This document shows positions 7,525 through 63,391 of a stretch of DNA of 64,000 bases, in pieces. A model generated the notes under the pieces. The model made no database searches. It worked only from the letters and a program-made list of their open reading frames with translations, and was not told the DNA's origin. Source of the stretch: Kovacikia minuta CCNUW1 (lineage in GTDB: Bacteria > Cyanobacteriota > Cyanobacteriia > Leptolyngbyales > Leptolyngbyaceae); the NCBI RefSeq assembly GCF_020091585.1, contig NZ_CP083582.1, positions 2,976,001 through 3,040,000 on the forward strand, written 5' to 3'. Numbering within the stretch: position 1 is the stretch's first letter; each line of letters starts with the position of its first letter. The position numbers and the translations under genes are program-made.

Positions 7525-8430
7525 CTATTTTCCCTCCTCTGACTCCTCAATGCCTTCTTTCCCCGATCGTGGGTTCTGAATTGCCCACTCAATCTGGCTC
7601 AAAATCCCCCTTAACAAAGCAACCTCTTCCGTCGAAGGGAGTGCCCGGTTGAACAAGCGGCGAAATTTTCTCATGCGGCTATCCGCTGTGTGGGGATAGA
7701 GATAGCCAATCTTCAACAGAACCGCTTCCAGATGCTGGTAATAGGCTTCAAGACTATCGAGAGAAGCGGGTGTGGGGTGTGGGGTGTGGGGTGTGGAAGT
7801 TTTGAGTGTTGAATGCTGAATGGAAGCTGAGGACTGAGGACTGAGGACTGAGGACTGAGTGCTGGAAGTCCCCGTGTTTCCCTCTCCCTGTGTCTCCGTG
7901 TCTTCCTCCACGGCTGACTCCTGACTCCTGACTTCTGACGCCTGAAATAATTCATAGCAACAAATCGCCACAGCCTGCGCCAGATTCAAAGAGGGGTAAA
8001 TGGGGCTGGTGGGAATTTGGAGAAAGCGCTGGGCATAGCTAAGTTCCCTATTGTTTAACCCCCGATCTTCAGGACCAAAGATGAGGGCAGCATTTCCGTG
8101 GTGGGCAACTTCCAGGAGCCAGGGAAGAATGATTTTGGGAGGTTCCAGGGTAATGTCTAACGTGCGAGGACGGGCAGTAGTGGCGATCGCCCACCGACAC
8201 CCACGCAACGCCTCAGGTAAGGTTCCGACGACCCCTGCTGCCTCCAACACATCACCCGCATGCACCGCCATCTGCCGGGCCTCTGGTCCCAAAAGGTCAC
8301 ACTTAGGAGCCACCAATATCAGCGTCCTCAAGCCCATATTCTTCATCGCTCGCGCGATCGCCCCTACATTTAGCGCCCCCGCTGGCTCAACCAAAACAAT
8401 TCGAATATTCGCCAACGCTGTTTTAACCAT
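7525..8430 (-). CDS. TrmH/SpoU-family RNA methyltransferase (TrmJ-like) with repeat-derived insert
   Basis: SPOUT-class methyltransferase that 2'-O-methylates RNA, most like the tRNA position-32 enzyme TrmJ. Motifs: VEPAGALNVGAIARAMKNMG at the N-terminus, ALIFGPEDRGLNNREL and the knot-forming IYPSLNLAQAVAICCYELFQ. The helical C-terminal part (YYQHLEAVLLKIGYLYPH and MRKFRRLFNRA) is typical. Between them, residues of about 165-222 are a low-complexity insert (QSSVLSPQSSASIQHS, then TPHTPHPTP) whose DNA, about 7768-7940, is the same heptamer repeat found in spacers. The insert lies between the SPOUT domain and the C-terminal extension and probably forms a flexible linker. Confidence 0.87.
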   Translation of the reverse strand: MVKTALANIRIVLVEPAGALNVGAIARAMKNMGLRTLILVAPKCDLLGPEARQMAVHAGDVLEAAGVVGTLPEALRGCRWAIATTARPRTLDITLEPPKIILPWLLEVAHHGNAALIFGPEDRGLNNRELSYAQRFLQIPTSPIYPSLNLAQAVAICCYELFQASEVRSQESAVEEDTETQGEGNTGTSSTQSSVLSPQSSASIQHSTLKTSTPHTPHPTPASLDSLEAYYQHLEAVLLKIGYLYPHTADSRMRKFRRLFNRALPSTEEVALLRGILSQIEWAIQNPRSGKEGIEESEEGK

Positions 8431-8560
8431 GCAAAACGTTTAATATTAAGTTTTATGATGCTAGGTCATGGAACCAGAAGCCAGGAACCAGAAGCCAAGA
8501 TTAACTTAAAACTTAATATTCAAAACTCAAAACTTAAAATCCTCTCGCCCTCCCCCTGCC

Positions 8561-8716
8561 ATGCCGCGCTCTCGCCCCAAGTCTGATTTACCCACCAAGA
8601 TCTGCCCTGTTTGCGATCGACCGTTCGCCTGGCGCAAAAAATGGGAAGATTGCTGGAACGATGTGAAATACTGCTCGGAGCGATGTCGGCGGCGGCGATC
8701 GCAAGCCAGTGGGTAG
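8561..8716 (+). CDS. DUF2256-type small cysteine-rich protein
   Basis: A 51-residue reading frame starting ATG CCG CGC TCT and ending TAG at 8716. It contains [17 protein letters not shown], then a [13 protein letters not shown] cluster, the hallmark of DUF2256: four cysteines in CxxC and CxxxC pairs, likely binding a metal, with a basic tail. The function is unknown. In other bacteria such genes often sit near photolyase/cryptochrome genes; none is seen here. Confidence 0.8.
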
Positions 8717-8926
8717 GAGTGTCAAATAGCAGGGACCTTTTCCCCAGCAACTCAGCAACTCATCCAAAGCAGTCCAGAAGTCTGTGTTACAGATATCGTT
8801 TGCCAATCATTCCATCATTTGGAGTGAGTATCTATGTGGATGGATTAACTGCTTGTTAACCGCTAATCGCTAACGGCTGACAACTAAAAGCTAATCGCTA
8901 GTAATCAATTTTTCGAGGTTCCAGGA

Positions 8927-9883: not shown

Positions 9884-10030
9884 GAGGGGAAGGGGAAGGG
9901 GGTAGGAAAGGATAAAGGATGAAGGATAAAGGATAAAAAGAAAGCATCTCCATCACCCCTCATCCCCCCATCCCCCATCCTTACTCACTACTCCCTAGCC
10001 CCTCCCCCTTCTGCCTTTTGCTATACCCGA
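9884..10030. repeat. heptamer repeat spacer
   Basis: Spacer between convergent genes containing GGATAAA/GGATGAA arrays (about 9908-9940), TCATCCC-type arrays (about 9950-9980) and CTCACTAC/CCCTAGCC units. No coding signal. Confidence 0.7.
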
Positions 10031-24204: not shown

Positions 24205-24374
24205 TAGGTGGTAGGTGGTAGGTGGTAGGTGGTAGGGGTTAGGAAAAGGATAAAGGATAAGGGATGAGGGATAAAACAATCTCTACCAACCCATCACTCC
24301 ATCCCCCTGTCACCATCTTTCGTCCTTATACCCTTTATCCTCTATCCTTCATCCTTTATCCTTTCCCTTCATCC
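24205..24374. repeat. heptamer repeat spacer
   Basis: GGTAGGT arrays at 24205-24240, GGATAAA/GGGATGA units at about 24242-24272 and ATCCTTT/ATCCTCT units at about 24325-24365. No gene is seen. Confidence 0.75.
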
Positions 24375-25403: not shown

Positions 25404-25808
25404 ATGCGGTTGATTTTGTATAGCAAACCGGGATGTCATCTGTGTGAAGGGTTGCAGGAAAAGCTGGAGCACATTCAGAATCTTGACCTGGAATTGGAGG
25501 TTCGGGATATTACAACTCGCGACGATTGGTTTCAGGCGTATCAGTATGAGATTCCAGTGCTGTTTTGGGTGAGGGAGGAGAGGGAGTCAGGAGTCAGGAG
25601 TCAGAAGCTAAAAGAAGATGCGGAGAAGAAGGCAGCGGGCAGCGGGCAGCGGGCAGAAGGGGAGATGGGGGAACAGGGAGACAAGGGGACAAGGGGGGAG
25701 GAAATTCAAAGTTCAAAATTCATCCCTATCTCGCGCGTTTCTCCCCGTGCGTCCGTACAACAATTGGAGCGGATTTTGCGGAGCTATCTAGAGGGCGATC
25801 GCGAATAA
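25404..25808 (+). CDS. glutaredoxin-like (DUF836-type) protein with repeat-derived insert
   Basis: The N-terminus has the redox motif LILYSKPGCHLCEGLQEKLE, and IPVLFW forms the cis-proline strand. The C-terminal RVSPRASVQQLERILRSYL completes a small thioredoxin fold of about 90 residues. Between the cis-Pro strand and the last helix lie about 50 residues of charged low complexity (ESGVRSQKLKEDAEKKAAGS, then GEMGEQGDKGTRGEEIQSS). They are read from AGTCAGG, GGCAGCG and GGGACAA heptamers at about 25570-25735. The insert falls inside the fold, so activity is uncertain. Confidence 0.75.
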   Translation: MRLILYSKPGCHLCEGLQEKLEHIQNLDLELEVRDITTRDDWFQAYQYEIPVLFWVREERESGVRSQKLKEDAEKKAAGSGQRAEGEMGEQGDKGTRGEEIQSSKFIPISRVSPRASVQQLERILRSYLEGDRE

Positions 25809-26037
25809 TAGGCTTCCCCATTTTTGGAAAAGTGCTTTAAATTGTTGGGCAATAAGAGAGGGGGAGGGAGTAAGGGTCAGGGGCAAGGGTCAGGGGTCAG
25901 GGGTCAGGAGTGAGTATCCAACAACAAACAACCAATGATCAATGACCAATGACCAATGACCCAATAATCCCTAGCTCCTAACTCCTAGCCCCTAACCCCT
26001 AGCCCCTAACCCCTAATTAGGTCGTGAGGATTATCCA
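25809..26037. repeat. heptamer repeat spacer
   Basis: GGTCAGG x5 (25875-25912), CAATGAC x4 (25935-25962, the known STRR TTGGTCA type) and CCTAACC/CCTAGCC x6 (25975-26016). No gene is seen. Confidence 0.85.
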
Positions 26038-27591
26038 ATGAAACTGCGAGAGTTGCTGGCTGCGGTTCCTGAAATTGTCCAACCATCAGACCATCCTGCT
26101 TTGGCAGAGGAGGTCAAAGGTTTGACAGCCAATTCCCTTGCCTGTAAGCCGGGAGACCTGTTTATTGGGATGCCGGGAACGCGAGTAGATGGAGGGGATT
26201 TTTGGGCAGGGGCGATCGCGGCGGGGGCGATCGCAGCGGTTATTTCTCCCGAAGCGGCAGAAAAGGCAGAGGGCAGAGGACAGGAGGCAGATCTCAGTCC
26301 TCAGTCCTCGAACCCCACTCCCCTGCTTCTCTCTGCCCCTGATATGACTCAAGCCTGTGCCCAATTGGCAACCGCTTTCTATGGCTACCCAACTCAACAA
26401 ATGAAATTGGTTGGGGTGACGGGCACCAATGGTAAGACAACGACAACCCATTTAATTGAATTCCTTCTGAACCAGGCACAGAAGCCAACTGCTCTACTGG
26501 GAACGCTGTATGCTCGCTGGCGCAATTATCAGCAAACGGCGGCTCATACCACTCCCTTTGCAGTTGAACTTCAGCGGCAACTGGCGGAAGCCCGTGCAGC
26601 TGGTTCGGAGTACGGAGTCATGGAAGTCAGTTCCCATGCCCTGGCACAGGGACGGGTGCTAGGTTGCTCGTTTGAAACAGCGGTGTTTACGAACCTGACC
26701 CAGGATCACCTGGATTTTCACCGGGATATGGAGGATTACTTCGCGGCGAAGGCGTTGCTGTTCAGTCCGGGGTACCTCAAAGGAAAAGCGATCGTGAATC
26801 AGGATGACCCCTATGGTCGTCGGTTGATTCAACAAGTAGGTCGGGAGCGGGTATGGAGTTATAGTACCCATGAATCCAATGCGGATTTATGGACGAGTGA
26901 CCTGTCCTATGGCTCCGATGGAGTGGGTGGAATGTTGCATACACCCCAGGGGCAAATTGCGTTTCGATCGCCCCTCGTCGGTCAGTTCAATCTCTCGAAT
27001 CTGCTGGCAGCCGTTGGGGCAGCCTTACACCTGGGATTGGAACTAGAAGCCATTGGGGCAGCCTTGCCGCTGTTTGGGGGAGTACCGGGACGGATGGAGC
27101 AGGTGCAAATTTCCCCCAACCAGGACATTAGTGTAATTGTGGACTATGCCCATACACCAGACAGCCTGGAGAATTTGCTTAAAGCAGCCCGTCCCTTTAT
27201 TTCAGGCAGGATGATTTGTGTGTTTGGGTGTGGGGGCGATCGCGATCGGGGCAAACGTCCCCAAATGGGGAAAATTGCGGCTGATCTTGCCGATCAGGTG
27301 CTTGTCACCTCTGACAACCCTCGCACAGAAGACCCCCAGCGAATTTTAGCCGACATTGTGGCAGGAATTCCTGCCGTAGAAACGCGATTAGGCTCCTCTC
27401 TCCAGGTGATTGGCGATCGGGCTGAGGCAATTCGAACGGCAATTTTACAAGCCCAACCGGGAGATGGGGTGCTGATTGCAGGAAAGGGACACGAAGACTA
27501 TCAGATCTTAGGCACTGAAAAGATTCATTTCGACGATCGGGAGCAGGCACGCGCCGCCTTGGATAATCGCCTAACAGTCCTCAAGCAATGA
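26038..27591 (+). CDS. murE: UDP-MurNAc-L-Ala-D-Glu:meso-diaminopimelate ligase
   Basis: ATP-dependent addition of meso-diaminopimelate to the peptidoglycan precursor. The P-loop VGVTGTNGKTTTTHLIEFLL is at about 126, MEVSSHALAQGRV and VFTNLTQDHLDFHRDMEDY in the middle domain, VDYAHTPDSLENLL, and the DAP-specifying TSDNPRTEDP (about 424-433). AGKGHEDYQ is near the end. Residues of about 77-100 (EKAEGRGQEADLSPQSSNPT) are read from GGCAGAG and CAGTCCT heptamers at 26254-26330, inserted in the N-terminal UDP-binding domain. It is followed after 7 bp by a large membrane-protein gene. Confidence 0.95.
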   Translation: MKLRELLAAVPEIVQPSDHPALAEEVKGLTANSLACKPGDLFIGMPGTRVDGGDFWAGAIAAGAIAAVISPEAAEKAEGRGQEADLSPQSSNPTPLLLSAPDMTQACAQLATAFYGYPTQQMKLVGVTGTNGKTTTTHLIEFLLNQAQKPTALLGTLYARWRNYQQTAAHTTPFAVELQRQLAEARAAGSEYGVMEVSSHALAQGRVLGCSFETAVFTNLTQDHLDFHRDMEDYFAAKALLFSPGYLKGKAIVNQDDPYGRRLIQQVGRERVWSYSTHESNADLWTSDLSYGSDGVGGMLHTPQGQIAFRSPLVGQFNLSNLLAAVGAALHLGLELEAIGAALPLFGGVPGRMEQVQISPNQDISVIVDYAHTPDSLENLLKAARPFISGRMICVFGCGGDRDRGKRPQMGKIAADLADQVLVTSDNPRTEDPQRILADIVAGIPAVETRLGSSLQVIGDRAEAIRTAILQAQPGDGVLIAGKGHEDYQILGTEKIHFDDREQARAALDNRLTVLKQ

Positions 27592-30500: not shown

Positions 30501-31875
30501 CGGGCTTTATACGATCGCCGCTGCCCTGGTGGGAATTGGGGTAGGACGGCGACAACTCCGCTTTAAGCCCCTCACCTACCTCTCTGTTCTTGCGATCTCC
30601 TTTGGTGCGTATGAACTGCTGTTTTATCAATTGTCTCAGGCAAAAGGAGACCGTCCGGGGGATGCGATCGTTCTCCTGGGAGTGTTGGCAGCCTTTCTGG
30701 CGATCGCCCTGCGCCTGTTGCTCCCGTGGCTCCTTCCTTACCTGCGCCTGCTCCCTGGGGAAATCCTGGCAATTGCACACGTTCACTGGGCGATCGGCAG
30801 CATTTTTCTGGTGGGCGCACTCCTGAATCCCCTAAGCACTCAGGGCGAATGGGGATGGGTTGGAGTCGCTGCGGTTCTGGCTGGCTATGCCCTGGTGATG
30901 GGGCATGGGAGATGGGGAATAGGAGATGGGGGAGGTAGGGAAGATAGGGAGGCAGAAGAGTCCTCAGTCCTCAGTCCTCAGTCCTCAGCCCCCCTCAGTC
31001 CTCGAACCCCACACCTCACACCCCACACCCCACACCCTACACCCCAATTCTGGACGTATGCCGGAATCATCGAAGCGGTCCTCACCTTCGCCTACCTGCT
31101 GCATCTGCTGCTGCCCGATGCCTTTTTAATTAAATGGGGTGGAACGATCGCCGCTATCCTGGCTTTTTCCCTATACCAGGTACCCTGGCAATCCTGGGGT
31201 TGGCAACGGGAACCCTGGCGCAAATCGGCAGCAACCCTCCCTGCCCTCGCGACGATGCTGACCGCGGGCGGAATTTCCCTCCAAAGTTTGCTGATTGTGG
31301 CAGCGTTCTATGCCTGGTTAGCCAAGGCAGAACGACAGGTGCGCCTCAGCTATCTGAGTGTGTTGCTGGCAGACTGGGCAGCCGTGCGTTTTCTCCATCA
31401 ACACAATGCGGTAGAACCGCTATGGCTTGCGGTTTTAGTAGGGGTAACTCTGCTTTACATGGCTCAAATTGATCCGGATCTGCGATCGCCCACGGAACGC
31501 GACAAACGCCATCTGCTCCGTTGTCTGGCAACGGGCTTAGTCAGCCTAACCGCATTCTACCAATCCGAAATCGGCATCTCAGGCATTCTACCCATTCTGG
31601 TTGGCATCCTAAGCATTGGGTTGGCACTTGGCTTTATCCTGACGGGAATTTGGCTGCGGGTGCGGGCATTCCTCTACATTGGCACCCTTGCCTTTGTCGT
31701 GCAAATATTGCGACAGCTATGGCTCTTTATCAACGACTACTCACTGGTGCTATGGGCGGTAATTGGCGCAATGGGATTGGTCTTCATGTGGATTGCAGCA
31801 ACCTTTGAAGCGCGACGCACTCAAATGACCGCACTGGTAGCATATTGGTCTTCCGAACTGGAGAATTGGGAATAA
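27599..31875 (+). CDS. very large polytopic membrane protein (DUF2157-like), frame break in a repeat array
   Basis: About 1425 codons. The soluble N-terminal region (HPALLEGLDVWLRLGLLSDE) precedes more than 25 hydrophobic segments (e.g. LSVVWLLFLGVFMVVVSSG; VQIATLLLIPVNFWMM). The first frame is open to 29596; membrane-protein sequence resumes in another frame at about 29545 (SAWYFGFALAALSYMLLIGE) and ends at 31875. The switch lies in a 29370-29540 array including CGGAGACA octamers. The span is 3n+2 bases, which one extra octamer or one lost heptamer would produce. Three other arrays (28405-28565, 30330-30440, 30905-31050) sit in loops between membrane segments and keep frame. The family assignment is tentative. 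Confidence 0.65.
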
Positions 31876-32361: not shown

Positions 32362-32663
32362 AGTAGCCTACACCGAAATGAGAAGGACTACTCCAACCTA
32401 ACATCCTGTGATCCCGTTCGCTGTAAATCCGATTACCAACCGTGGTAGGGGGTAGGTGATAGGTGGTAGGTAGTAGGTGGTAGGTAGTAGGGGGCAGGGG
32501 GTAGGGGATAGGGGGCAGGTGTCAGGTGTCAGGTATCAGGGGGTAGATTTTATTCCTCATCCCTCATCCCTCATCCCCCCCTCCCCCTCCCTCATCCCTC
32601 ATCCCCCCTCCCCCTCCCCCTCCCTCATCCCTCATCCCCCCCTCCCCCTCCCCCTCCCCTCCC
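32362..32663. repeat. dense heptamer repeat array
   Basis: GGTAGGT/GGTGATA units 32443-32500, GTCAGGT units 32518-32540, then TCATCCC and CCCTCCC units to 32663. One of the longest arrays in the window. It abuts the 3' end of the glycosyltransferase gene. Confidence 0.85.
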
Positions 32664-47015: not shown

Positions 47016-47047
47016 AATCTACTTAGTGAGTATCAACCCCCGGAACA

Positions 47048-47635: not shown

Positions 47636-47690
47636 AAGTTTGACCGTTTCTTTAAACCTGGAGCAACCTGAAAATCGTTCGGCTCACGTT

Positions 47691-48467
47691 ATGCTAACGA
47701 TAGAAAACTCAACGAAAGGGCATTCGCAGATGGTGGCGCATCCCTCCATTCCTCCCGCTGTGGAGATTCTCTATCCTGAAACAGACGGTCAACCAATGGC
47801 GGATAATACAGCGCAGTTTCGTTGGATCGTCACCATTAAGGAGAATCTCGAAATATTGTTCGCGGCTGATCCCACGGTCTTTGTCGCGGGGGATTTGTTG
47901 TGGTATCCCGTGGAAGGGAACAACAGGCTCTGTCAGGCTCCCGACGCAATGGTGGTCTTCGGCAGACCCAAGCAGGATCGCGGTTCATACCAACAATGGC
48001 GGGAAGAAAATATTGCCCCGCAAGTCGTGTTTGAAATTTTATCGCCAAGCAACACTGGGGCGGAAATGACGCGCAAGCTATTGTTTTACCAGCAATACGG
48101 CGTTGAGGAATACTATATTTATGACCCCAGTTGTAATGAGTTGGTTGGCTCTCGAAGGTTAGACCAGCACCTGGCTGAAATCACTGAGATTCAGGGATGG
48201 GTGAGTCCTCGGTTGGGGATTCGGTTTGAGTTAGACGAAACCACCCTTTGCATTTATGCGCCCAATGGCGATCGCTTCCTGACCCCGGTGGAACTTGCCG
48301 CCCAGCGTGACCAGGAACGCCAACGGGCTGACCAGGAGCAACAACGGGCTGACCAGGAACGCCAACGGGCTGACCAGGAGCAACAACGGGCTGACCAGGA
48401 GCAACAACGGGCTGATCGATTGGCTGCTAGATTACGCACAATGGGAATTGACCCAGATACGGGCTGA
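47691..48467 (+). CDS. Uma2-family endonuclease with coiled-coil heptad tail
   Basis: The Uma2 domain: VEILYPETDGQPMADNTAQF, LCQAPDAMVVFGRPKQDRGS (catalytic Asp), PQVVFEILSPSNTGAEMTRK and EEYYIYDPSCNELVG. The C-terminal extension (about 48300-48420) is five near-identical 21-bp units, reading ADQE(Q/R)QR in heptads, then RADRLAARLRTMGIDPDTG. It would form a charged coiled coil. The ATG at 47691 is chosen; a TTG at 47640 sits next to the hairpin, and MVAHPS at 47730 is another option. Confidence 0.83.
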   Translation: MLTIENSTKGHSQMVAHPSIPPAVEILYPETDGQPMADNTAQFRWIVTIKENLEILFAADPTVFVAGDLLWYPVEGNNRLCQAPDAMVVFGRPKQDRGSYQQWREENIAPQVVFEILSPSNTGAEMTRKLLFYQQYGVEEYYIYDPSCNELVGSRRLDQHLAEITEIQGWVSPRLGIRFELDETTLCIYAPNGDRFLTPVELAAQRDQERQRADQEQQRADQERQRADQEQQRADQEQQRADRLAARLRTMGIDPDTG

Positions 48468-48888: not shown

Positions 48889-51800
48889 ATGTCAACTGCC
48901 CAAGCCACCAACGACACTGAGAGTCTCGATCTAAAACAGCTTTTGAAGATTTTAAGCGAGGTCAAAAAAGGGGATTTTTCCGTTCGGATGCCCAATGATC
49001 AGACGGGTATCGCCGGGAAAATTGCCGATACCCTGAATGACATTATTGAGCGGAACGAACAGATGACCGCTGAACTAGAGCGGATCAGCACCGTCGTTGG
49101 TAAAGAGGGCAAGATTAATGAACGAGCTTCTTTGGGAGGAAATGCCAGGGGTTCCTGGAAGGCGTCTGTGACTTCAATTAATACTCTGATCACCGATCTG
49201 GTGCAGCCGACTGCCGAAACGGCGCGGGTACTGCGGGCGGTGGCAAATGGAAATTTGACTCAGACGGTGGCGATCGAAATCGATGGCAGACCGCTACAAG
49301 GGGAGTTCCTGCAAACGGCCCACGTGGTTAATACAATGGTGGATCAGCTTAACTCTTTTGCGTCTGAGGTGACGCGGGTGGCGCGGGAAGTGGGAACTGA
49401 AGGCAAACTGGGGGTGCAGGCACAGGTGCCAGGAGTTGCCGGAACCTGGAAGGACCTGACCGATAGTGTGAACTCGATGGCAGGTAACCTGACCGCCCAG
49501 GTGCGCAACATTGCAGAAGTGACGACAGCGGTAGCAAATGGTGATTTGTCCAAGAAAATTACCGTTAATGTAAAGGGCGAAATTCTGGAGCTAAAAAACA
49601 CGATTAACACAATGGTGGATCAGCTCAACTCCTTCGCTTCAGAAGTGACACGGGTGGCGCGGGAGGTGGGAACCGAGGGCAAACTGGGGGTGCAGGCGCA
49701 GGTGCCAGGAGTTGCCGGAACCTGGAAGGATCTGACGGATAACGTGAACTTGATGGCAGGCAACCTGACCGGGCAGGTGCGCAACATTGCGGAAGTGGCA
49801 ACGGCGATCGCCAACGGCGACCTCTCAAAGAAAATTACCGTCGATGTTAAAGGTGAAATTTTAGAACTCAAAAACACGATCAACATCATGGTGGATCAGC
49901 TCAACTCCTTCGCTTCAGAAGTGACACGGGTGGCACGGGAAGTGGGCGCAGAAGGCAAACTGGGCGGGCAGGCACAGGTGCGGGGTGTTGCCGGAACCTG
50001 GAAAGATCTGACCGACAGTGTGAACTTCATGGCAGGCAGTTTGACTGACCAGGTACGAAACATTGCCGAAGTGACCACCGCTGTGGCAAACGGCAATCTC
50101 TCAAAGAAAATTACCGTCGATGTCAAAGGTGAAATTTTAGAACTCAAGAACACCATCAATATCATGGTGGATCAGCTCAACTCCTTTGCTTCTGAGGTAA
50201 CGCGGGTGGCGCGGGAGGTGGGAACCGAGGGCAAACTGGGGGTGCAGGCGCAGGTACCAGGGGTTGCCGGAACCTGGAAGGATCTGACGGATAATGTAAA
50301 TTTGATGGCAGGCAACCTGACCGGGCAGGTGCGGAACATTGCGGAAGTGACGACGGCGGTGGCAAATGGTGACCTCTCCAAAAAGATCACCGTGGATGTG
50401 AAGGGCGAAATCCTGGAGCTGAAAAACACGATCAACACGATGGTGGATCAGCTCAACTCCTTTGCTTCAGAAGTGACGCGGGTGGCACGGGAAGTAGGCG
50501 CAGAAGGCAAACTGGGCGGACAGGCGGAGGTGCGGGGTGTCGCCGGAACCTGGAAAGACCTGACCGACAGTGTGAACTTCATGGCAGGCAGTTTGACTGA
50601 CCAGGTACGGAACATTGCGGAAGTGACGACCGCCGTGGCAAATGGCGACCTGTCCAAAAAGATCACCGTGGATGTGAAGGGCGAAATCCTGGAGCTGAAA
50701 AACACCATCAACATCATGGTGGATCAGCTCAACTCCTTTGCTTCTGAGGTAACGCGGGTGGCGCGGGAAGTGGGAACCGAAGGCAAACTGGGGGTACAGG
50801 CGGAGGTGCGGGGTGTTGCCGGAACCTGGAAAGACCTGACCGACAGTGTGAACTCGATGGCAGGCAACCTGACCGCCCAGGTACGGAACATTGCGGAAGT
50901 GACGACCGCCGTGGCAAATGGCGACCTGTCCAAAAAGATCACCGTGGATGTGAAGGGCGAAATCCTGGAGCTGAAAAACACGATCAACATCATGGTGGAC
51001 CAGCTTAACTCCTTTGCTTCTGAAGTAACGCGGGTGGCGCGGGAAGTGGGAACCGAAGGCAAACTGGGGGTGCAGGCGGAGGTGCGTGGCGTCGCTGGCA
51101 CCTGGAAAGACCTGACCGATAACGTGAATTCGATGGCAGGTAACCTGACCGCCCAGGTACGGAATATTGCGGAAGTATCGACAGCGATCGCGAATGGCGA
51201 CCTGTCCAAGAAAATCACCGTGCAGGTAAAGGGCGAAATTCTGGAACTGAAAAACACGATCAACACGATGGTGGATCAACTCAGTTCCTTCGCCTCTGAA
51301 GTAACGCGGGTGGCGCGGGAAGTCGGTTCTGAAGGCAAACTGGGGGTGCAGGCAGATATACGCGGCGTTGCCGGAACCTGGAAAGACCTGACCGACAGCG
51401 TCAACTTCATGGCAGGCAGTTTGACCGCCCAGGTGCGGCACATCGCTACCGTGACGACCGCCGTAGCAAACGGCGACCTGTCCAAAAAGATCACCGTGGA
51501 TGTGAAGGGCGAAATCCTGGAGCTGAAGAATACCATCAACACGATGGTGGATCAGCTCAACTCCTTCGCCTCTGAAGTAACGCGGGTGGCGCGGGAAGTG
51601 GGAACCGAAGGCAAACTGGGGGTGCAGGCGGAGGTGCGGGGTGTTGCCGGAACCTGGAAAGACCTGACCGACAGTGTGAACTCGATGGCAGGCAGTTTGA
51701 CCGCCCAGGTGCGGAACATTGCGGAAGTGACGACCGCCGTGGCAAACGGTGACCTGTCCAAGAAGATCACCGTGGATGTGAAGGGCGAAATCCTGGAACT

Positions 51801-54800
51801 GAAGAACACCATTAATACAATGGTGGATCAGCTGAGTGCCTTTGCTTCTGAAGTAACGCGGGTGGCGCGGGAGGTGGGAACCGAAGGAAAACTGGGGGTA
51901 CAAGCCTACGTGCGAGGCGTTGCGGGCATCTGGAAAGACCTGACCGATAACGTAAACTCGATGGCAGGTAACCTGACCGCCCAGGTACGAAACATCGCGG
52001 AAGTGACCAAGGCGGTGGCAAACGGCGACCTCTCCAAAAAGATCACCGTGGATGTGAAGGGTGAAATTTTGGATCTGAAGGACACCATTAATACAATGGT
52101 GGATCAGCTCAACTCCTTTGCTTCTGAAGTAACGCGGGTAGCCCGTGAGGTAGGAACCGAAGGGATTCTGGGAGGGCAGGCGGACGTAAAGGGCGTTGCC
52201 GGAACCTGGAAAGACCTGACCGACAGTGTGAACTCGATGGCAGGCAACCTGACCGCCCAAGTGCGGGGCATCGCGAAAGTGGTAACGGCAGTAGCAAATG
52301 GGGACCTGAAGCGAAAACTGATGTTGGAAGCCAAGGGTGAAATTGAAACCCTGGCGGATACGATCAACGAAATGACCGACACCCTGGCAACCTTTGCCGA
52401 TCAGGTGACCACAGTGGCACGCGAGGTGGGAATTGAAGGGAAACTGGGGGGGCAGGCAAAAGTGCCCGGTGCATCGGGAACCTGGCGTCACCTGACCGAC
52501 AACGTGAACGAATTGGCAGCCAACTTAACCACTCAGGTACGGGCGATCGCGGAGGTTGCCACCGCTGTGACCAAGGGCGATTTAACCCGCTCGATCGCCG
52601 TTGCCGCCGAGGGTGAAGTGGCGATCCTGAAGGACAATATCAACCAGATGATTGCCAACCTGCGCGAAACCACACAGAAGAACACCGAGCAGGACTGGCT
52701 CAAAACCAACCTGGCGAAGTTCACCCGCATGTTGCAGGGGCAACGCGATCTGGAAACGGTTTCCAAGCTCATCCTGTCCGAACTAGCACCGCTGGTTTCG
52801 GCACAGCATGGCGTCTTCTACCTGATGGAGATGAGCGAGGATCATCCCCCCTACCTGAAGTTACTCAGCACCTACGCCTACCGCGAACGCAAGAATCTGG
52901 CAAACCGCTTCCAGTTGGGTGAGGGGTTGGTCGGTCAATGTGCGCTGGAAAAAGAACGGATTCTAATTACCGAAGTCCCCCATGATTACATCAAGATCAG
53001 TTCCGGCTTAGGGGAAGCGACACCACTCAATGCAGTCATATTGCCTGTTCTGTTTGAAGGTCAGGTAACTGCGGTAATTGAACTAGCATCCTTCCGTCGC
53101 TTTAGCGAAATTCACCTGATGTTCTTCGATCAGTTGACGGAAAGTATCGCGATCGTCCTCAACACGATCGCTGCCAGCATGAGAACGGAGGAACTGCTGA
53201 AGCAATCCCAATCCCTGGCAGAAGAACTGCAAACGCAACAGAAGGAACTGACCGAAACCAACAAACGGTTGGAACAACAAGCCCAATCTTTGAAGGCATC
53301 GGAAGACCTGCTGAGAAATCAACAGGAACAGTTGCAGCAAACCAATGCCGAGTTGGAAGAAAAAGCCGAACTGCTGGCATTGCAAAACCGGGAAGTGGAA
53401 CGCAAGAATCGCGAGATTGAGCAAGCCAAACGCTCTCTGGAAGAGAAAGCCGAACAACTGGCACTCACGTCCAAATACAAATCCGAGTTTCTGGCTAACA
53501 TGTCCCACGAACTGCGGACTCCACTCAACAGCTTGCTGATTTTAGCCCGGTTGCTATCCGAAAACAGTGAGCGTAACCTGACCCAAAAACAGGTCGAGTA
53601 TGCCCAAACCATCCATTCCTCCGGGCACGATTTGCTGGAGTTAATCAACGACATCCTTGATCTGGCGAAGATCGAATCGGGCACGATCGCCATCAATATC
53701 GATTCGACCAAGTTTACCGATTTGCAAGAGCAAACCGAACGCACCTTTCGCCAGGTTGCCCAGGACAAAAATCTGAACTTCTCAATTCGCCTGGATCAGC
53801 ACCTGCCCCCGACTCTCCATACCGACTCAAAGCGACTTCAGCAAGTGTTGAAGAATCTGCTGTCGAACGCCTTCAAATTCACAGAGCAGGGACAGGTCGA
53901 TCTGAGCATCAGCATCGCCACCGGAGGCTGGAGTCCGGATCATAAGATCCTCAACCGTGCAGATCAGGTGATTGCCTTTGAAGTGAAGGATACGGGCATT
54001 GGAATTGCGGCTGAAAAACAACAGGTCATTTTTGAAGCCTTCCAACAGGCAGATGGCACCACAAGCCGGAGATACGGTGGCACGGGTCTGGGCTTGTCCA
54101 TTAGTCGGGAAATTGTCCGGCTCCTGGGTGGACAAATTCAGTTGGTCAGTGAAGTGGGGGTAGGCAGCACCTTTACCCTGTATCTGCCGCAAACCTACCA
54201 TCCCCCAGAGGAGCCAAAGTCCAGGGAAGATTCCAGCTACCTGTTCAAACGCTCTGGCACATCCGATTCGCCGCTGCACCTGTCCCAAACCCTGACAACG
54301 GCAAATACTCGCACCCAGACGATCGATCTGTTGCTGGAGAATGAACTGGAGGACGATCGGGAAATCATTCAGACGGATGACCACACCCTGTTAATCATCG
54401 AAGATGACCCCAAGTTCGCCCGGATTCTGCTGGACATGGTGCGGGAGCAAGGCTTTAAAGGACTGGTGGCATTGCGGGGAGATGTCGGTCTGGCGATGGC
54501 GCAGGAATTCAAACCGGCGGCGATCGTACTGGACATTCGTCTACCCGTGCTGGATGGTTGGATGGTGCTGGATCGGCTCAAGCACGACCCCAGTGTTCGC
54601 CATATTCCCGTTCACATCATGTCCGTTGAAGATGGCTTGCAGCGTGGGTTGCACCAGGGCGCGATCGCCTATTTGCAAAAACCCATCACCAGCGAAGCCC
54701 TAGGGAATGCCCTCAGCGCCATCAAAGAGTTTGTTGAGCGCCCCATGAAAAACCTGCTGATTATTGAGGGAAGCGGCATTCAACGGCAAAAAATTGTGGA

Positions 54801-55551
54801 CTTCATTGGGAATAACGACATTATCAACACGGCAGTGAGCAGCGGTGCAGAAGCCCTGGAAACCCTGCGGTCAAATCGGTTTGATTGCATGGTTCTGGAT
54901 CTGGAACTGCCCGACATGAGTGGATTTGATCTGCTTGATCAGATCAAGCAGGAACTCAGCCCCAACTTCCTGCCAATTATTATTTACACCAGTCGGGAGT
55001 TGACTGCCCAGGAAACCACCCAACTGCAACAGGCATCTGAGGCGATCGTGATTAAAGATGTCCATTCTCCGGAACGACTCATCGACGAGATGGTACTATT
55101 TTTGCATCGCGTTCAGGCAAATCTGCCGTTCCATACACAGCAAGTGTTGGAACAGATTCAGCACCATGATCCAACCCTGGCAGGCAAAAAAGTGCTCATC
55201 GTCGATGATGATGTTCGCAACATTTTTGCCCTCACCAGCCTGCTGGAGCAGTATCAAATGCAGGTTCTTTACGCCGAAAACGGCAGAGATGGGATTGCCA
55301 TGTTGCAAAACAATTTCGATATTCACCTGGTGTTAATGGACATCATGATGCCAGAAATGGATGGCTACGAAACCACCCAGGCGATCCGTCAAATCGGTCA
55401 GTTTGCCACACTGCCCATCATTGCCCTGACAGCAAAGGCAATGCAGGGCGATCGGGAAAAATGCCTTGCTGCCGGAGCCACTAACTATATCCCCAAACCT
55501 GTCAACACGGAACAACTTCTGTCGTTGATGCGGGTTTGCCTTCATCAATGA
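48889..55551 (+). CDS. poly-HAMP hybrid histidine kinase with GAF and three receiver domains
   Basis: 2220 residues, no membrane segment, cytosolic. The N-terminal HAMP-like segment (1-147) is followed by twelve HAMP repeats of exactly 92 residues (148-1251), as in fungal Nik1-type osmosensing kinases. Next come a GAF domain (about 1280-1425), a coiled coil (about 1430-1520) and HisKA with His1540 in [16 protein letters not shown]. HATPase_c shows VKDTGIGIA and [13 protein letters not shown]. Three receivers follow: REC1 from about 1830, Asp1882; REC2 from about 1955, Asp2004; REC3 from about 2100, Asp2151. REC2 has IIEGSG where the acidic pair should be, so it is probably weak or dead. It starts at ATG 48889. 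Confidence 0.93.
49330..52641 (+). repeat. twelve tandem 276-bp HAMP-coding repeats
   Basis: Unit starts are spaced by exactly 276 bp (11 intervals from 49330 to 52366). Each begins with N-(T/I)-M-V-D-Q-L and contains KLG(V/G)QA...[11 protein letters not shown] and a DLSKKITV core. Repeats 2 and 4 share [11 protein letters not shown], and repeats 3 and 5 share [11 protein letters not shown], showing that a two-unit block (552 bp) was duplicated. The last two repeats are the most divergent. Confidence 0.92.
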
Positions 55552-55719: not shown

Positions 55720-58700
55720 ATGCTCAACAAATTCAGAATTAGAACCAAAATCGGGGCAGGGTTTGCCACTGGTGTGGTGATCTCGGCAGCGATCGGACTC
55801 TTTATTTACAAAAGTGCTACCCAGGCGATAGAAGCTGCCCATTGGGAAACCCATACTTATAAGGTTCTCACCGACCTTGAGAATCTGATGTATCGCCTGA
55901 AGGATGCTGAGGTTGGGCAACGGAATTATCTAATCACGGGCAACGAGCAGTATTTAGAACCCTTGAATTCTATCAATCAGGAACTCAATCAAAACCTGAC
56001 AAATCTTCGCCAATTGACCAAGGACAATCTCCAACAGCAGCAGTTTTTAAATCAATTAGAACCCCTGGTCAAAGGGCGCTTACAAACGTTAGAAAAAGTT
56101 GCTCAAGTTCGTCGAACCCAGGGATTTGCCGCCGCTACTAATCCAGTGTCACTCAAACAGGGAATTGATCAGGCAGAGGCTATTCGCAGGCTTGCCCAGG
56201 AGATGCGAAATAAAGAACAAAAATTGTTAGAACAGCGCACCGAACAATCCAATGCGGCAACGCAGCAAATGCTGTATAGCATTTCAATTGGGATTCCGCT
56301 CTATGCGGTGCTGCTGGGCCTGATTGGGTTTTTCCTGACCCGCAACATTGCCAACCCCCTCAGAAATATTTCCGCTGCTGCCGAACGCATCGCAGCCGAT
56401 GATTTGCTCAGTTCATCTGCCCGTGGACGATCGCAATGATGAGATTGGCACCCTCTCCCAAACCTTCAACCAGATGGTTGCGAACCTGCGAGAAAACAGG
56501 CAGCAAACTGCGGAACAGGATTGGCTCAAAACCAATCTGACCAATTTCACCCAAATGCTTCAGGGGCAACGGGATCTGGAAACTACCGCCAAGCAAATTT
56601 TGTCTGAACTGGCTCCTCTGGTTGCGGCACAGCATGGGGTGTTTTACCTGATGCAATCCGATGGCAGCCTTACCCCATCCCTGAAACTGCTGAGTGCTTA
56701 CGCCTATCGAGAACGCAAACATCTGGCAAACCAGTTTCGCCTGGGAGAAGGTCTGGTTGGGCAATGTGCGCTGGAAAAGGAACAAATTTTGCTGACTGAA
56801 GTCCCCCAGGACTATATCAAAATTAACTCCGGCTTAGGGGAAGCGACGCCATTAAATGTGGTGGTGTTGCCTGCGGTATTTGAAAACCAGACGATCGCCG
56901 TAATTGAGTTGGCCTCCTTTCAACGGTTTAGTGAGATTCAACTGACCTTTTTGGATCAACTGATGGTGAATCTGGCGATCGTCCTCAACAATATGATCGC
57001 CAACCAGAAAACGAAAGAATTGCTGGAAGAATCCCAAACCCTTACGGAAGAACTGCAAACCCAACAGGAAGAACTGACCGAACGAAATCAACGTCTAGCA
57101 GAACAAGCAAAAACTTTGAGAGAGTCAGAACAACTCCTAAAAGAACAACAGGAAGAATTGCAGCAAACTAATGAGGAGTTAGAGGAGAAAACGGAGTTAT
57201 TGGCGCTGCAAAATCGGGAAATGGAGCGCAAAAACAAAGAGTTGGAAGAAGCAGGAGCTTCCCTGGAAGAAAAGGCGAACCAACTGACGCTCACCTCCAA
57301 ATATAAATCCGAGTTTCTGGCGAATATGTCCCATGAACTCCGAACTCCCCTCAACAGTTTATTAATTCTGGCCCGGTTACTGTCTGAAAATGGAGAGGGA
57401 AACTTATCCCAAAAACAAACGGAGTATGCCCGCACCATTTACTCCGCTGGCAACGATCTATTAGCGCTGATTAATGACATTCTCGATCTGACCAAGATTG
57501 AAGCAGGGATGATGTCCGTCGATGTCAATCGGACTTTGTTTACCGATATCAGTGGGCATCTGGAACAAACCTTTCGTCAGATTGCCCAAGACAAAGGGCT
57601 GGAGTTTACCATTCACCTGGATGCTAACTTGCCATCGGCGATCGATACTGATCCAAAACGCCTCCAGCAGGTGTTAAAAAATCTACTGGCAAATGCGTTT
57701 AAGTTTACCGATCGCGGTCAAATTGCCCTGTCAATTTCTCCAGTGTCCCACGGTTGGAGCTTCGACCAGACTGCCCTGAATCAGGCGGAAACAGTCATCG
57801 CCTTCGCCGTTCAGGATACGGGCATTGGCATTGCCCCCGATAATCAGCAAATGATCTTTGAAGCTTTTCAGCAAGCAGACGGCACCACCAACCGCAAATA
57901 TGGAGGCACCGGGTTGGGCTTATCCATCAGCCGTGAACTTGCCCATTTACTGAGTGGTGAAATTCGCCTGGTCAGCCAACCGGGGGTAGGGAGTACCTTT
58001 ACGCTTTACTTGCCACAGGCTGTAGAGAAGACAGAGGGAAGCACTCAACCCCCAGTTCTCAGTTCTCAGTCCCCAGCTTCAATTCACAATCCAAAATCCA
58101 AAGTCCAAAATTCTGTCCCAACTCAAAACTTAGAACTCAAAACTCAAAACTCTTCCTCATCCCTCATCCCCCACCCCTCACTCCTTACCGAAAACCCCCT
58201 ACAGGACGATCGCAACACCCTCCAACCTGACGATCACAGCCTGTTAATTATTGAAGATGACTTAAACTTTGCCCGAATTTTGCTGGACATGGCACGCCAC
58301 CATGGCCTTAAAGGACTGGTGGCACCCCGGGGAGATGTTGGTTTGGCGATGGTTCAAGAGTTCAAGCCAACCGCCATCATGCTGGATATTGCCTTACCAG
58401 GTATAGACGGTTGGCAAATTCTCGATCGCTTGAAGCATGACCCCAGTTGCCGCCACATTCCAATCCATGTCATGAGCGTAGAAGAAGGGCAACAACGGAG
58501 TTTGCATCAGGGTGCGATCGCCTATCTCCAAAAACCAGTCAGCAGCGAAGAAGTGACTCGAGCGCTGACCTCACTCAACGAGTTTATCGATCGTCCTGTG
58601 AAGAATCTGCTGATTGTGGAAGATGACAACCTTCAACGCCATAGTTTGGTTGAACTAATTGGAAATGGAGATGTGGTCAGCACCGCCGTTGGCACCGGCG

Positions 58701-59404
58701 CAGAAGCCCTGGAAGCCTTACAATCGAGCCATTTTGACTGCATGGTGCTAGATCTGGGATTGCCGGATATGAGCGGTTTTGAGTTAATTGAGCAGATCAA
58801 ACAACAACCCAGTTTGGGTTACCTGCCGATCATTGTTTACACCGGCAAGGATCTCAGCCACCGGGAAGAAACCGAACTGCGCCGCATCTCTGACACGATC
58901 ATCGTCAAAGGGGTGCGCTCCCCAGAACGGCTTCTGGACGAAACGGCTCTGTTTCTCCATCGCGTTCAGGCAAGCCTGCCCGAACCCAAGCGGATTGTGC
59001 TAGACCAACTGAGGCAAAACGATCCGGTTCTGGCAGGCAAAAAAGTGTTGATCGTAGACGATGATGTCAGAAATATCTTTGCTCTCACCAGTCTCCTAGA
59101 GGGCTATCAGATTCAAGTGTTCTACGCCGAAAATGGGCAGGATGGCATCGCAGCCCTGCAAGCCAACCCCGACATTGATGTGGTGTTAATGGATGTCATG
59201 ATGCCCGAAATGGACGGCTACGAAACCACCCGTGCCATTCGCCAGAACAAGCAGTTCTCTTCCCTACCCATCATTGCCCTGACGGCAAAAGCAATGCAGG
59301 GCGATCGCGAAAAATGTATCGAAGCTGGAGCCTCAGATTACATCACCAAACCCGTGGATACCGAGCAATTACTTTCCTTACTCAGGGTGTGGCTGTATCA
59401 GTAG
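55720..59404 (+). CDS. CHASE3-HAMP-GAF hybrid histidine kinase with three receivers, one frame break
   Basis: A membrane segment, CHASE3-like extracytoplasmic domain (YRLKDAEVGQRNYLITGNEQ, LEPLVKGRLQTLEKVAQV), second membrane segment (YAVLLGLIGFFLTRNIANPL) and HAMP. At about 56407 one surplus base separates ERIAADDL from SVHLPVDDRNDEIGTLSQTF. Then GAF, coiled coil, HisKA ([16 protein letters not shown]), HATPase_c and three RECs, all closely similar to the upstream kinase. Unlike it, REC2 here keeps the acidic pair (LIVEDDNLQRHSLVEL). A repeat-derived linker (PASIHNPKSKVQNSVPTQ...) at 58030-58195 separates the ATPase from REC1. The span is 3n+1. Confidence 0.9.
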
Positions 59405-60550: not shown

Positions 60551-61122
60551 TGGCGTTTGAGATCATCGTCATTGGCACCTCTCTGGGTGGGTTGAGTGCC
60601 CTCAGAGTGCTGCTAGGTAGCTTGCCCCGAGACTTTCCCCTGGCAATCGCTGTTGTTCAGCATCGCTACAAAGACTTCAACAACAGCCTAAGCTCCTTCT
60701 TACAGCAATTTCTTTCCCTGCCTATTAAAGATGTGGAAGACAAAGACCCCATCCAACCTGGGAAAATTTATCTAGCTCCAGCAGACTATCATTTGTTGGT
60801 TGAACCGGGTTATTTCTCGCTTTCTATTGATGAACCCGTTTCTTTTGCCCGTCCCTCGATCGATGTTTTGTTTGAGTCCGCCGCAGACACCTACCGAGAC
60901 CGGACAGTGGGAATTGTTTTGACTGGAGCAAATCATGACGGAGCGCGGGGCTTAAGCAGCATCAAAACAGCCAATGGTTTGACGATTGTACAGGACCCCG
61001 CCTCAGCGGAAAGTAACATAATGCCCCTGGCAGCCATTGCCGCGACCTGCGTTGACGCCATTTTGCCGCTGGCTGAGATTGCCCCCTATCTAATGAACCG
61101 TTGTGCTTCTGTCCGGAGTTGA
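60550..61122 (+). CDS. CheB-type protein-glutamate methylesterase domain, no receiver
   Basis: Removes methyl groups added by CheR. The catalytic triad is visible: Ser in IVIGTSLGGLSALRVLLG, His in AIAVVQHRYKDFNNSLSSFL, Asp in IVLTGANHDGARGLSSIKTA. 190 residues. It lacks the N-terminal receiver of classical CheB, and the REC domains of the neighbouring kinases may supply regulation. It overlaps cheR by one base, and the next kinase begins 4 bp after its stop, so the three are almost certainly one operon. Confidence 0.92.
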   Translation: MAFEIIVIGTSLGGLSALRVLLGSLPRDFPLAIAVVQHRYKDFNNSLSSFLQQFLSLPIKDVEDKDPIQPGKIYLAPADYHLLVEPGYFSLSIDEPVSFARPSIDVLFESAADTYRDRTVGIVLTGANHDGARGLSSIKTANGLTIVQDPASAESNIMPLAAIAATCVDAILPLAEIAPYLMNRCASVRS

Positions 61123-61126
61123 GTCT

Positions 61127-63391
61127 ATGCAGCCAGACCTTCAAGTAAACATCCTGTTGGTGGATGATCGGGAAGAAAACTTGCTGTCCTTAGACGCTGT
61201 GCTGAGTAGCCTGGGTGAAAATCTGGTGCAGGCGCGTTCTGGAGAAGAAGCTTTGAGATGTTTACTGGAGCAGGATTTTGCGGTCATTCTGTTGGATGTG
61301 CAGATGCCCGGAATGAATGGGTTTGAAACCGCAAATCTGATCCGCAATCGACCCCGATCGCGCCACACCCCAATCATTTTTCTAACTGCCTTTAGCACAA
61401 GCGATGAGTTTGTCTTTAAAGGGTATTCATCTGGAGCGGTGGATTACCTTTTGAAACCGATCGATCCGGTGATTCTGACCTCCAAAGTGGCGGTATTTGT
61501 TGATCTATTTAGAAAGAACGAAATCATCAAACAGCAGGCAGAGGAGGTGAGACGCAAAGCAGCCCAACTAAAAACCATTAACACTGAATTACGCCAGAGT
61601 GAAGAACGCTTTCGCTCCCTCAGTGCTTGTTCTCCGGTGGGCATTTTTCTACTCGATATTCATGGACAATGCATCTACACCAATCCCCGTTGTCAGGCAA
61701 TTTGCGGCTTCTCCTCAACTGAAAGCATGGGGGAAGGATGGATGCAGTTTATCCATCCTGATGATCAAAAACGGGCGATCGAGGATTGGGCAAATTACAC
61801 CCATCAGCAAAAAGAAGATACCTACGAATATCGGTTTCAAACTGCCGACGGAACGATTCGCTGGACCCTTGTACGCTCCTCTCCCATGTTCTCTGACAAG
61901 GGCAAATTGATCGGGCACGTTGGTACCGTTGAAGATATTACCCAGCGCAAACAGGCAGAAGCCGATCGCGAGCAAATGATTCGCGAACAAGCTGCCCGCC
62001 GAGAAGCAGAAGCCGCCAACCGAATGAAAGACGAGTTTTTGGCAGTTCTTTCCCATGAACTACGCACTCCTCTTAGTGCCATGCTGGGTTGGGCACGCCT
62101 ACTTCGCACCCAAAAGTTGGATAAGCCCACCAGGGAGCGCGCCCTGGAGACAATTGAACGCAACGCAGTGGTTCAGTCCCAACTGATTGAAGATATCCTG
62201 GATGTTTCAAAAATTATCCGCGGCAAGCTGAACCTGAAATGCGCGCCAATCAATCTGGTTTCTGTGGTTGAAGGTGCAATCGATTCGGTTCGACACCAGT
62301 TGGAATCAAAGGAAATTCAGCTGGAAACCCTATTGGATGCGGCAACCGGACGAGTTCAAGGAGACCCTTTCCGACTCCAGCAGGTGATCTGGAATTTGCT
62401 GACCAACGCCATTAAATTTACCCCCGATAAGGGCAGGGTGGAAATCAGACTAGAAAGGGTGCAAGCAGGGAGTAGGGAGTGGGGAGTAGGGAGTGGGGAA
62501 CAAGCGTCCCACGCCCCACACCCCACGCCCCACACCCCCGCTTTTGTTCAAATCCAGGTCATCGACACTGGCATTGGCATCAGTCCAGATTTTTTGCCCA
62601 ATGTCTTTGACCGCTTTCGTCAGGCAGATAGCACCACCACCCGATCGCACAATGGATTGGGCTTGGGGCTTGCGATCGTGCGCCACCTGGTTGAACTGCA
62701 CGGCGGCACAGTCCACGCTGCCAGCCCCGGTGAGGGCAAAGGGGCAACCTTTACGGTGCGGCTACCCTTGATTGAGGCAGGCAAGCCAGGAGGGGAGGCG
62801 GGGACACGGGGATGGGGGGACGCGGAGATTAAAGTAGAAGGCAGAGGGCAGGAGGCAGAGGGCAGAAGGCAGGAGGTGCAGGGGGAAACTCAGCGCTCAG
62901 TACTCAGCCCTCAGCCCTCAGCCTCAATTCAAAATTCAAAATTCAAAATTCAAAATTCTGAATTCACTCAAAACCCTGCCCCAGCCGACACCCCCCTGCA
63001 CGGAATTCAGGTTCTCGTTGTAGATGACGAAGCAGACACGCTGGAATTGATGTCCTTTGCCCTCCAGCAGTTTGGTGCAACCACGATCGCCGTGAATTCG
63101 GCTAACAAAGCGCTGGAAGAACTGAGTCATGCCAAACCTGACGTATTAATCAGCGATATTAGCATGCCAGAACAGGATGGCTACATGCTGATTCACCAGG
63201 TTCGGGAGCGCGAAACGGAAAGCCAGGCACCCCTGCCCGCGATTGCCCTGACTGCGCACACCCGCGAAGAAGACCAAAAAAAAGTCCTATCCGCAGGATT
63301 CCAGGCTCACCTCGCTAAGCCCATTGACATGAACCTGCTAGCAGAGGCGATCGTCCGACTTCTGAACCACCCTGTAGAACTATCTAATTAA
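61127..63391 (+). CDS. REC-PAS hybrid histidine kinase with C-terminal receiver
   Basis: 754 residues. The N-terminal REC (NILLVDDREENLLSLDAVLS, phospho-acceptor in VILLDVQMPGMNGFETA), PAS/PAC (LSACSPVGIFLLDIHGQCIY), HisKA ([20 protein letters not shown]), HATPase_c (VIDTGIGISPDFLPNVFDRF, NGLGLGLAIVRHLVELHGG) and a second REC (IQVLVVDDEADTLELMSFAL, DVLISDISMPEQDGYMLI). The ATPase domain is interrupted by a repeat-derived stretch at 62460-62540 (AGSREWGVGSGEQASHAPHP...). A second array (62785-62960) links ATPase to REC2. GGAG at 61115 supports the ATG at 61127. Confidence 0.93.
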   Translation: MQPDLQVNILLVDDREENLLSLDAVLSSLGENLVQARSGEEALRCLLEQDFAVILLDVQMPGMNGFETANLIRNRPRSRHTPIIFLTAFSTSDEFVFKGYSSGAVDYLLKPIDPVILTSKVAVFVDLFRKNEIIKQQAEEVRRKAAQLKTINTELRQSEERFRSLSACSPVGIFLLDIHGQCIYTNPRCQAICGFSSTESMGEGWMQFIHPDDQKRAIEDWANYTHQQKEDTYEYRFQTADGTIRWTLVRSSPMFSDKGKLIGHVGTVEDITQRKQAEADREQMIREQAARREAEAANRMKDEFLAVLSHELRTPLSAMLGWARLLRTQKLDKPTRERALETIERNAVVQSQLIEDILDVSKIIRGKLNLKCAPINLVSVVEGAIDSVRHQLESKEIQLETLLDAATGRVQGDPFRLQQVIWNLLTNAIKFTPDKGRVEIRLERVQAGSREWGVGSGEQASHAPHPTPHTPAFVQIQVIDTGIGISPDFLPNVFDRFRQADSTTTRSHNGLGLGLAIVRHLVELHGGTVHAASPGEGKGATFTVRLPLIEAGKPGGEAGTRGWGDAEIKVEGRGQEAEGRRQEVQGETQRSVLSPQPSASIQNSKFKIQNSEFTQNPAPADTPLHGIQVLVVDDEADTLELMSFALQQFGATTIAVNSANKALEELSHAKPDVLISDISMPEQDGYMLIHQVRERETESQAPLPAIALTAHTREEDQKKVLSAGFQAHLAKPIDMNLLAEAIVRLLNHPVELSN

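Follow-up and report, generated by a model that had tools for sequence, protein, structure and literature searches.

Heptamer repeats have long been known in cyanobacteria. Those of filamentous cyanobacteria, the STRR heptamers, were reportedly described by Mazel et al. in 1990, and to our knowledge there is no agreed origin for the heptamer repeats of this phylum. Here such repeats were analyzed in a 64,000-nucleotide stretch of Kovacikia minuta CCNUW1 (contig NZ_CP083582.1, positions 2,976,001 to 3,040,000), called the window below, and in further stretches of the same genome. Heptamer arrays lie there in spacers and inside genes, and in clusters holding both types G-skewed units precede C-skewed ones without exception.

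Several described systems are close to these arrays. The STRR work of Mazel et al. 1990 is cited as a reference in the accessible part of PMC2670836. In Nostoc and Xanthomonas, the accessible text of PMC4692102 reports GGGGA(T/C)T and GGGAATC heptamers, of which some are intragenic and 68% are intergenic in Nostoc; these G-rich heptamers lie nearer to the next 5' open reading frame (ORF) whatever the orientation of that ORF, are rarer than expected on ORF coding strands and form few paired inverted repeats (Nostoc). Rickettsia palindromic elements (RPE) are presented in the available portion of PMC10969869 as defined, palindromic elements of about 150 bp found in frame in many unrelated genes. 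Finally, the P6b stem-loop of the Nostoc trnL intron carries, according to the accessible part of PMC4476775, 7-nt repeats on its two sides, which vary by whole units and pair in the RNA stem.

Abundance and polarity of the heptamer arrays

Arrays were detected at lag 7 in a sample of 2.024 Mb, composed of the window and 98 stretches of 20 kb. Some stretches were spaced by position; several others (for instance C1:550001, 1660001, 2370001, 2950001, 3910001 and 4700001) were set over known repeat matches, and were not selected on frame or polarity. The sample contains 795 arrays of period 7, which together take up 26.5 kb, while the other periods counted (4-6 and 8-11) yielded 5-58 arrays each; the second commonest period is 8 (58 arrays), and counts for lags 12-15, a threshold artefact, were left unused. 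A smaller sample of 1.224 Mb, used for period controls and density, gave 522 period-7 arrays versus 3-33 for each of the same other periods, and 3 and 0 arrays in two order-5 Markov controls. Arrays are about twice as dense in the window (0.80 per kb) as in the remainder of this smaller sample (0.41 per kb).

Genes were called with a home-made finder, which labelled 70% of the sample as coding, and an array was considered in-gene when it lay at least 60 nt inside a called gene. The arrays are then distributed as follows: 161 inside 65 genes, 102 at or near gene edges and 532 in spacers. The array at 28499 was tallied as spacer because the finder missed ORF 27599-29596. After masking of the repeats, the 65 genes sort into 50 homology groups, which indicates insertions that are for the most part independent. 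A Pfam family was found at E 1e-5 in 32 of 40 proteins (those of 38 of the 65 genes, MurE and the product of ORF 27599-29596), including DNA gyrase/topoisomerase IV A, NAD synthase, SIS/GATase, MnmE, LpxB, RsmB/F, UvrD, squalene-hopene cyclase and tocopherol cyclase.

Arrays were chained into clusters when they lay within 100 bp of each other, and the type of a unit was taken as the sign of G minus C. Among 183 clusters of at least two arrays, 138 contain both types, and in all 138 every G-type array comes first. Adjacent pairs within clusters are accordingly G-C in 136 cases and C-G in none. The tendency still holds at 100-200 bp (20 versus 1) and is reversed at 200-1000 bp, where pairs mostly join separate clusters (18 versus 47). 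The rule reads identically on the opposite strand. Expressed in purines and pyrimidines, the purine-rich arrays precede in 80 of 80 clusters, 32 of them in spacers, 31 in genes and 17 at edges; before the repeat-chosen stretches were added, adjacent pairs already stood at 29 versus 0. A second, looser order runs from flank to centre within each half: GGGGTGT comes before GAGTTTT in 21 cases versus 2, and GAGTTTT before GGACTGA in 8 versus 1, while other unit pairs are weaker (GGGGTGT and AAAGGAT, 4 versus 3).

The polarity extends to spacer DNA outside the arrays. Once arrays were masked, array-bearing spacers of 150-1500 bp showed G-skew on the left and C-skew on the right in 161 cases versus 75 (P 2e-8), and no such skew was seen in spacers devoid of arrays (276 versus 255). 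Lone spacer arrays lie on the predicted side, G left and C right, in 80 of 119 cases. A sequence-only reading of the window had proposed that the repeats follow a conserved composite order inside genes, as a mobile cassette producing linkers might. An order does exist, but it is a general polarity common to spacers and genes; since spacers share both this polarity and the flank-to-centre order, the data do not support its being a property of a linker-making cassette.

The two halves are not matched to each other. Complementarity between purine-rich and pyrimidine-rich units does not exceed that of permuted pairs, either in genes (4.41 versus 4.70 of 7, P 0.94, 27 pairs) or in spacers (4.19 versus 4.46 of 7, P 0.95, 27 pairs), and the arms therefore do not appear to be inverted repeats by descent. 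Two candidate causes were rejected. Clusters fold somewhat better than shuffled sequences (median z -1.1 versus -0.4 for random windows, z<-2 in 32-36% versus 10%); a hairpin was discarded as the origin because the arms are unmatched and, by reasoning, a C-then-G layout would fold equally well. Transcription was discarded as the origin of the skew, which is found between tandem neighbours (47 versus 20 and 58 versus 23) and divergent ones too (29 versus 15, P 0.049); between convergent neighbours it is not significant (27 versus 17, P 0.17).

Heptamer cassettes inside genes

The cassettes and spacer clusters considered in the window are listed below.

7768-7945, reverse strand, TrmJ-like gene (SpoU family); in gene sense GTCAGGA, octamers, CTCAGTC, AAAATTC-like, CCCCACA
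25570-25735, forward strand, glutaredoxin-like (DUF836) gene; GTCAGGA, GGCAGCG, then AAAATTC-like
26254-26330, forward strand, short cassette of murE, within the Mur_ligase match
28418-28569, forward strand, membrane ORF 27599-29596; G-rich arrays, then CCCCACA
29376-29535, forward strand, overlap of ORFs 27599-29596 and 29416-31875, which are in different frames
30343-30428, forward strand, ORF 29416-31875; GGCAGAG, then CCCCACA
30897-31046, forward strand, ORF 29416-31875; G-rich, CAGTCCT, CCCCACA
33141-33254, reverse strand, GT39-like ORF; in gene sense GYCAGRA, AAAACTC, CCCATTC
58030-58195, forward strand, hybrid kinase, between HATPase and receiver matches; CAGTTCT, AAAATCC, AAAACTC, ATCCCTC
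62467-62538, forward strand, second kinase, within the HATPase match; GGGAGTA/G, then CCCCACR
62785-62966, forward strand, second kinase, past the HATPase match; GGCAGAR, CAGYCCT, AAAATTC
24205-24364, spacer cluster; AGGTGGT, AAAGGAT, then ATCCTTT (G, G, C)
25865-26016, spacer cluster; AGGGGTC, then AATGACC and AACCCCT (G, C, C)
32442-32663, spacer cluster; AGGTGGT type, then CCCTCCT/CCTCATC type (G, C)

Array positions and translations confirm that heptamer arrays lie inside coding sequence, as had been read from the window, and also that one CTCAGTC/AAAATTC block has a common reading frame in the TrmJ-like gene (SPQSSASIQHS) and in the kinase ORFs 56348-59404 (SSQSPASIHNP) and 61103-63391 (SPQPSASIQNS). 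The three genes had been said to share no homology; this is true of TrmJ, which falls outside the kinase group, but the two kinases are homologous (a group of 7 genes). The membrane protein said to hold several cassettes is in fact two ORFs, 27599-29596 and 29416-31875, and the GT39 label comes from the sequence-only reading, the ORF itself having no Pfam family at E 1e-5.

Two filters act on in-gene arrays: freedom from stops and a hydrophilic peptide. A pure heptamer array encodes one cyclic heptapeptide whichever frame is read; within arrays only the strand therefore matters, and a shared frame is informative only at junctions. The arrays had been noted to avoid stop codons; frames are indeed open through them, but the avoidance is a property of strand, unit by unit. 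AAAATTC, AAAACTC, CAGTCCT and GTCAGGA have one open strand and stops on the other, whereas CCCCACA, GGCAGAG, GGCAGAA and GGGAGTG are open on both. Stops alone were rejected as the reason for the strand choice, on the evidence of hydropathy and of single arrays. Among in-gene arrays open on both strands, 79 of 88 use the more hydrophilic one, as do 15 of 16 single arrays (counted by hand), and mean hydropathy is -1.28 for in-gene heptapeptides versus -0.21 for spacer arrays read on random stop-free strands. Units open on both strands are strongly oriented in genes (CCCCACA 31 versus 2, GGCAGAG 13 versus 0, GGCAGAA 6 versus 0), which linked modules explain in part. AGGTGTC, ATCCTTT and ACCACCT each have a single open strand; spacers contain them 46, 43 and 35 times, and genes 2, 0 and 0 times in the open sense.

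Frame use explained by stop avoidance alone would have spoken against the sequence-only reading. We did observe an excess at AAAAYTC junctions, but it is modest, and most unit families show none. The first AAAAYTC unit has codon phases 27/5/3 in genes, against 42/27/29 open frames at spacer arrays (P 2e-4); before the repeat-chosen stretches were added, the phases were already 16/3/1 and 19/3/3 (overlapping sets). When one AAAAYTC array was kept per homology group, and only cases where the favoured frame was open together with one or both of the others, the favoured frame was used in 18 of 25 cases without flank (9.2 expected, P 0.0005), 17 of 23 with 30 nt flanks (P 0.003), 14 of 18 with 60 nt flanks (7.8 expected, P 0.003) and 7 of 9 with 90 nt flanks (4.2 expected, P 0.057). 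In an omnibus comparison of phases with open frames, the first AAAAYTC unit had P 0.035 and the last P 0.089. The phases of the other four unit families do not exceed what open frames allow, except for the last CAGTCCT unit (P 0.022). A frame set by stops alone is weakened by the favoured-frame test; it is only weakened, because unused frames of coding DNA can later gather stops.

The CTCAGTC/AAAATTC block was followed beyond the window. Exact matches to the composite CAGTCCTCAG..ATTCAAAATTCA are present at 10 genomic places (18 overlapping matches, against 0 for the control) and to the reverse order at 3 (5 matches), with both orders at one locus. CAGTCCT before AAAATTC is thus the preferred order, but not a fixed one as had been supposed. 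A single 7-nt register runs across the junction at 9 of the 10 places, which suggests common descent or copying of this junction; for this block, existing composites were likely copied. Furthermore, modules of 5 AAAAYTC units (33 nt complete) are found in 28 of 41 gene arrays versus 38 of 129 spacer arrays (P 1.5e-5). Neither order of the composite was found among 41 other genomes of the order, and a scan of a genome collection, from which records near this genome were possibly excluded, matched one Okeania metagenome-assembled genome (MAG). In that MAG (Okeania sp. SIO2C9, L180:5268-7707), AAAATTC, AAAAGTC and AGGAGTC arrays extend over 2.4 kb in a layout unlike the present cassettes. The cassette-coded peptides, searched as words in literature text, were not found.

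The sites of four of these cassettes were compared with those of relatives. The family comprises 42 genomes including CCNUW1, and the genus CCNUW1 alone. Matches exist in 39 of the 42 family genomes for the TrmJ-like core, 40 for MurE, 41 for the glutaredoxin-like and 37 for the GT39-like protein, and linkers were aligned with 29 relatives per gene. The inserts occupy segments that differ in length among these relatives, whose linkers span 16-86 aa in TrmJ (63 here), 3-44 aa in the glutaredoxin (52 here), 17-27 aa in MurE (27 here) and 10-46 aa in the GT39-like protein (43 here). Other heptamer-coded linkers occupy the same site in 7, 4, 4 and 1 of the 29 relatives, respectively, compared with 2, 0, 0 and 1 for the best of five control lags at the same score. 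The same order, with a GGCAGAG-type peptide followed by the QNSK type, is also present in some relatives, at L051 (TrmJ) and L240 (glutaredoxin). The linkers are consequently neither ancestral in all strains nor limited to this one, and the short or different linkers of relatives support their being lineage-specific inserts, as had been proposed. The presence of other heptamer linkers at the same sites indicates either permissive sites which are refilled or old inserts which have turned over.

In-frame residence, proposed as the general case, fails at the cassette at 29376-29535, unless its C-runs are mis-assembled. ORFs 27599-29596 and 29416-31875 overlap there (around 29376-29535) in different frames, and the frame matching ORF 29416-31875 is open over 1068-1434 aa in 30 of 32 relatives (521 and 647 aa in the other two), compared with 837 here. 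Either the cassette broke a membrane gene or the C-runs are mis-assembled; both outcomes fit repeat DNA under a filter rather than design. Between the heptamer halves of this cassette, 8-nt arrays of CGGAGACA type are placed at 29452-29490. At the GT39-like locus, the ORF has 350 aa (open frame 423), less than the 550-650 aa or so over which the frame is open in most relatives with a match. Immediately upstream, and on that strand too, is another ORF, 33856-34458; the locus 32664-34458 is possibly a second broken gene. Other repeats were observed in the window: a 276-nt unit repeated in tandem some 10.7 times (49333-52281) within ORF 48889-55551 (2220 aa), a 21-nt unit repeated in tandem some 5 times (48308-48415) within ORF 47640-48467, and, over positions 1-64000, 56 HIP1 sites (GCGATCGC) for about 1 expected, which points to a cyanobacterial origin.

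Explanations for the cassettes

We favour, as fairly probable, the view that polar composite heptamer DNA of the STRR kind has often been inserted in this lineage and that, in genes, it is filtered down to linkers. In this genome the composites have a G-skewed left half and a C-skewed right half, with a loose flank-to-centre order, on either strand. Such DNA fills spacers and is also present in genes, where the survivors sit in loops of variable length (in the four genes compared) and are stop-free, mostly coding for hydrophilic peptides, which are probably disordered linkers. Stop-free means in practice GGCAGAR or GYCAGRA on the left, and CAGTCCT, AAAAYTC and CCCCACA on the right. The conserved composite order would then be the general polarity of the repeat DNA viewed through the coding filter, and the shared frame would result from frame-neutral heptamers, filtering of whole cassettes for stops and, we infer, an inherited junction register. 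On this view polar repeat DNA was probably inserted and turned over, and some of the composites were probably copied.

Several results weigh against this view. In loci of relatives (429 kb, 76 arrays, 11 multi-array clusters), adjacent pairs are G-C in 9 cases and C-G in 3; the rule, absolute in the clusters of this genome, is perhaps less strict elsewhere. In four plasmid stretches, arrays were too few for a polarity count. The less hydrophilic strand is used by 9 of the 88 in-gene arrays open on both strands, and the GGGAGTG/CACTCCC family makes no strand choice in genes (3 versus 4). The frame bias persists beyond open frames with short flanks, so that the filter alone is insufficient, and no general 7-nt register was found across same-side junctions (11 of 85, for 15.4 expected). 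Lastly, the counts of in-gene and spacer arrays depend on home-made gene calls.

As to how the polarity itself arose, we tentatively propose an end-addition by which cyanobacterial spacers and many protein linkers would grow: G-rich heptamers would be added to both 3' ends of a break or gap, and the ends joined as in a telomere fusion. If true, this would leave a G-to-C scar readable on either strand, some scars becoming linkers through the coding filter, and would explain polarity without complementary arms, one-sided single arrays and the flank-to-centre order. No match to Ku, the protein of Ku-type end joining, was found in this genome, the control having matched in only 1 of 14 genomes.

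Another possible, though doubtful, explanation is a mobile element similar to RPE, in which a defined in-frame cassette would be copied from gene to gene and would keep its frame because donor and recipient both code for protein. The frame bias beyond open frames, the enrichment of 5-unit AAAAYTC modules in gene arrays and the junction register kept at 9 of 10 places speak for it. Yet module make-up varies freely between genes, the arms are not inverted repeats beyond chance, identical composites are present in spacers and no element ends were seen. It is improbable that the linkers were instead selected as useful peptides, serving for instance as protease sites or regulated linkers: the hydrophilic bias is strong and many enzymes carry such linkers, but at these sites the linkers of most aligned relatives are short or unrelated, one cassette lies where a frame is broken, and the repeat DNA is commoner in spacers than in genes. 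Growth of the repeats by local slippage from the coding sequence of each linker would suit sites that are variable linkers, but is very hard to believe given the same unit families across 50 homology groups and spacers, the dominance of period 7 alone and the G-before-C polarity.

Comparison with known repeats

The present arrays resemble STRR heptamers in being degenerate 7-nt tandem arrays, dispersed in the genome and mostly in spacers; here they far outnumber arrays of other periods. They differ from the STRR account in the accessible part of PMC2670836 by their composite G-before-C layout and by their widespread in-frame residence in genes. The Nostoc and Xanthomonas study, as far as its accessible text goes, concerns one unit family and an interest in G-quadruplexes, whereas many unit families are involved here; its position bias toward the next 5' ORF is what a G-left polarity predicts.

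Like RPE, the cassettes are in-frame repeat DNA in unrelated genes. Unlike them, they have arms that are not complementary beyond chance and form modular clusters of 1-6 arrays of varied units, a judgement made by reading, with no consensus built. The likeness to the trnL P6b stem-loop lies in 7-nt repeats on either side which vary by whole units; here, however, the unit pairs are unmatched, despite folding somewhat above shuffles. As for the terminal inverted repeats of miniature inverted-repeat transposable elements, our comparison of arms speaks only against inverted repeats of the arrays.

A polarity kept in 138 of 138 clusters without complementary arms constrains how heptamer repeats arise and makes the question testable. 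The cassettes also trace a route from noncoding repeat DNA to protein linkers, including those of housekeeping enzymes, under two measurable filters. Compared with these systems, heptamer STRRs and in-frame repeats were already known, and the G-before-C rule looks to be the new part, as judged from a literature search lacking most subscription papers.

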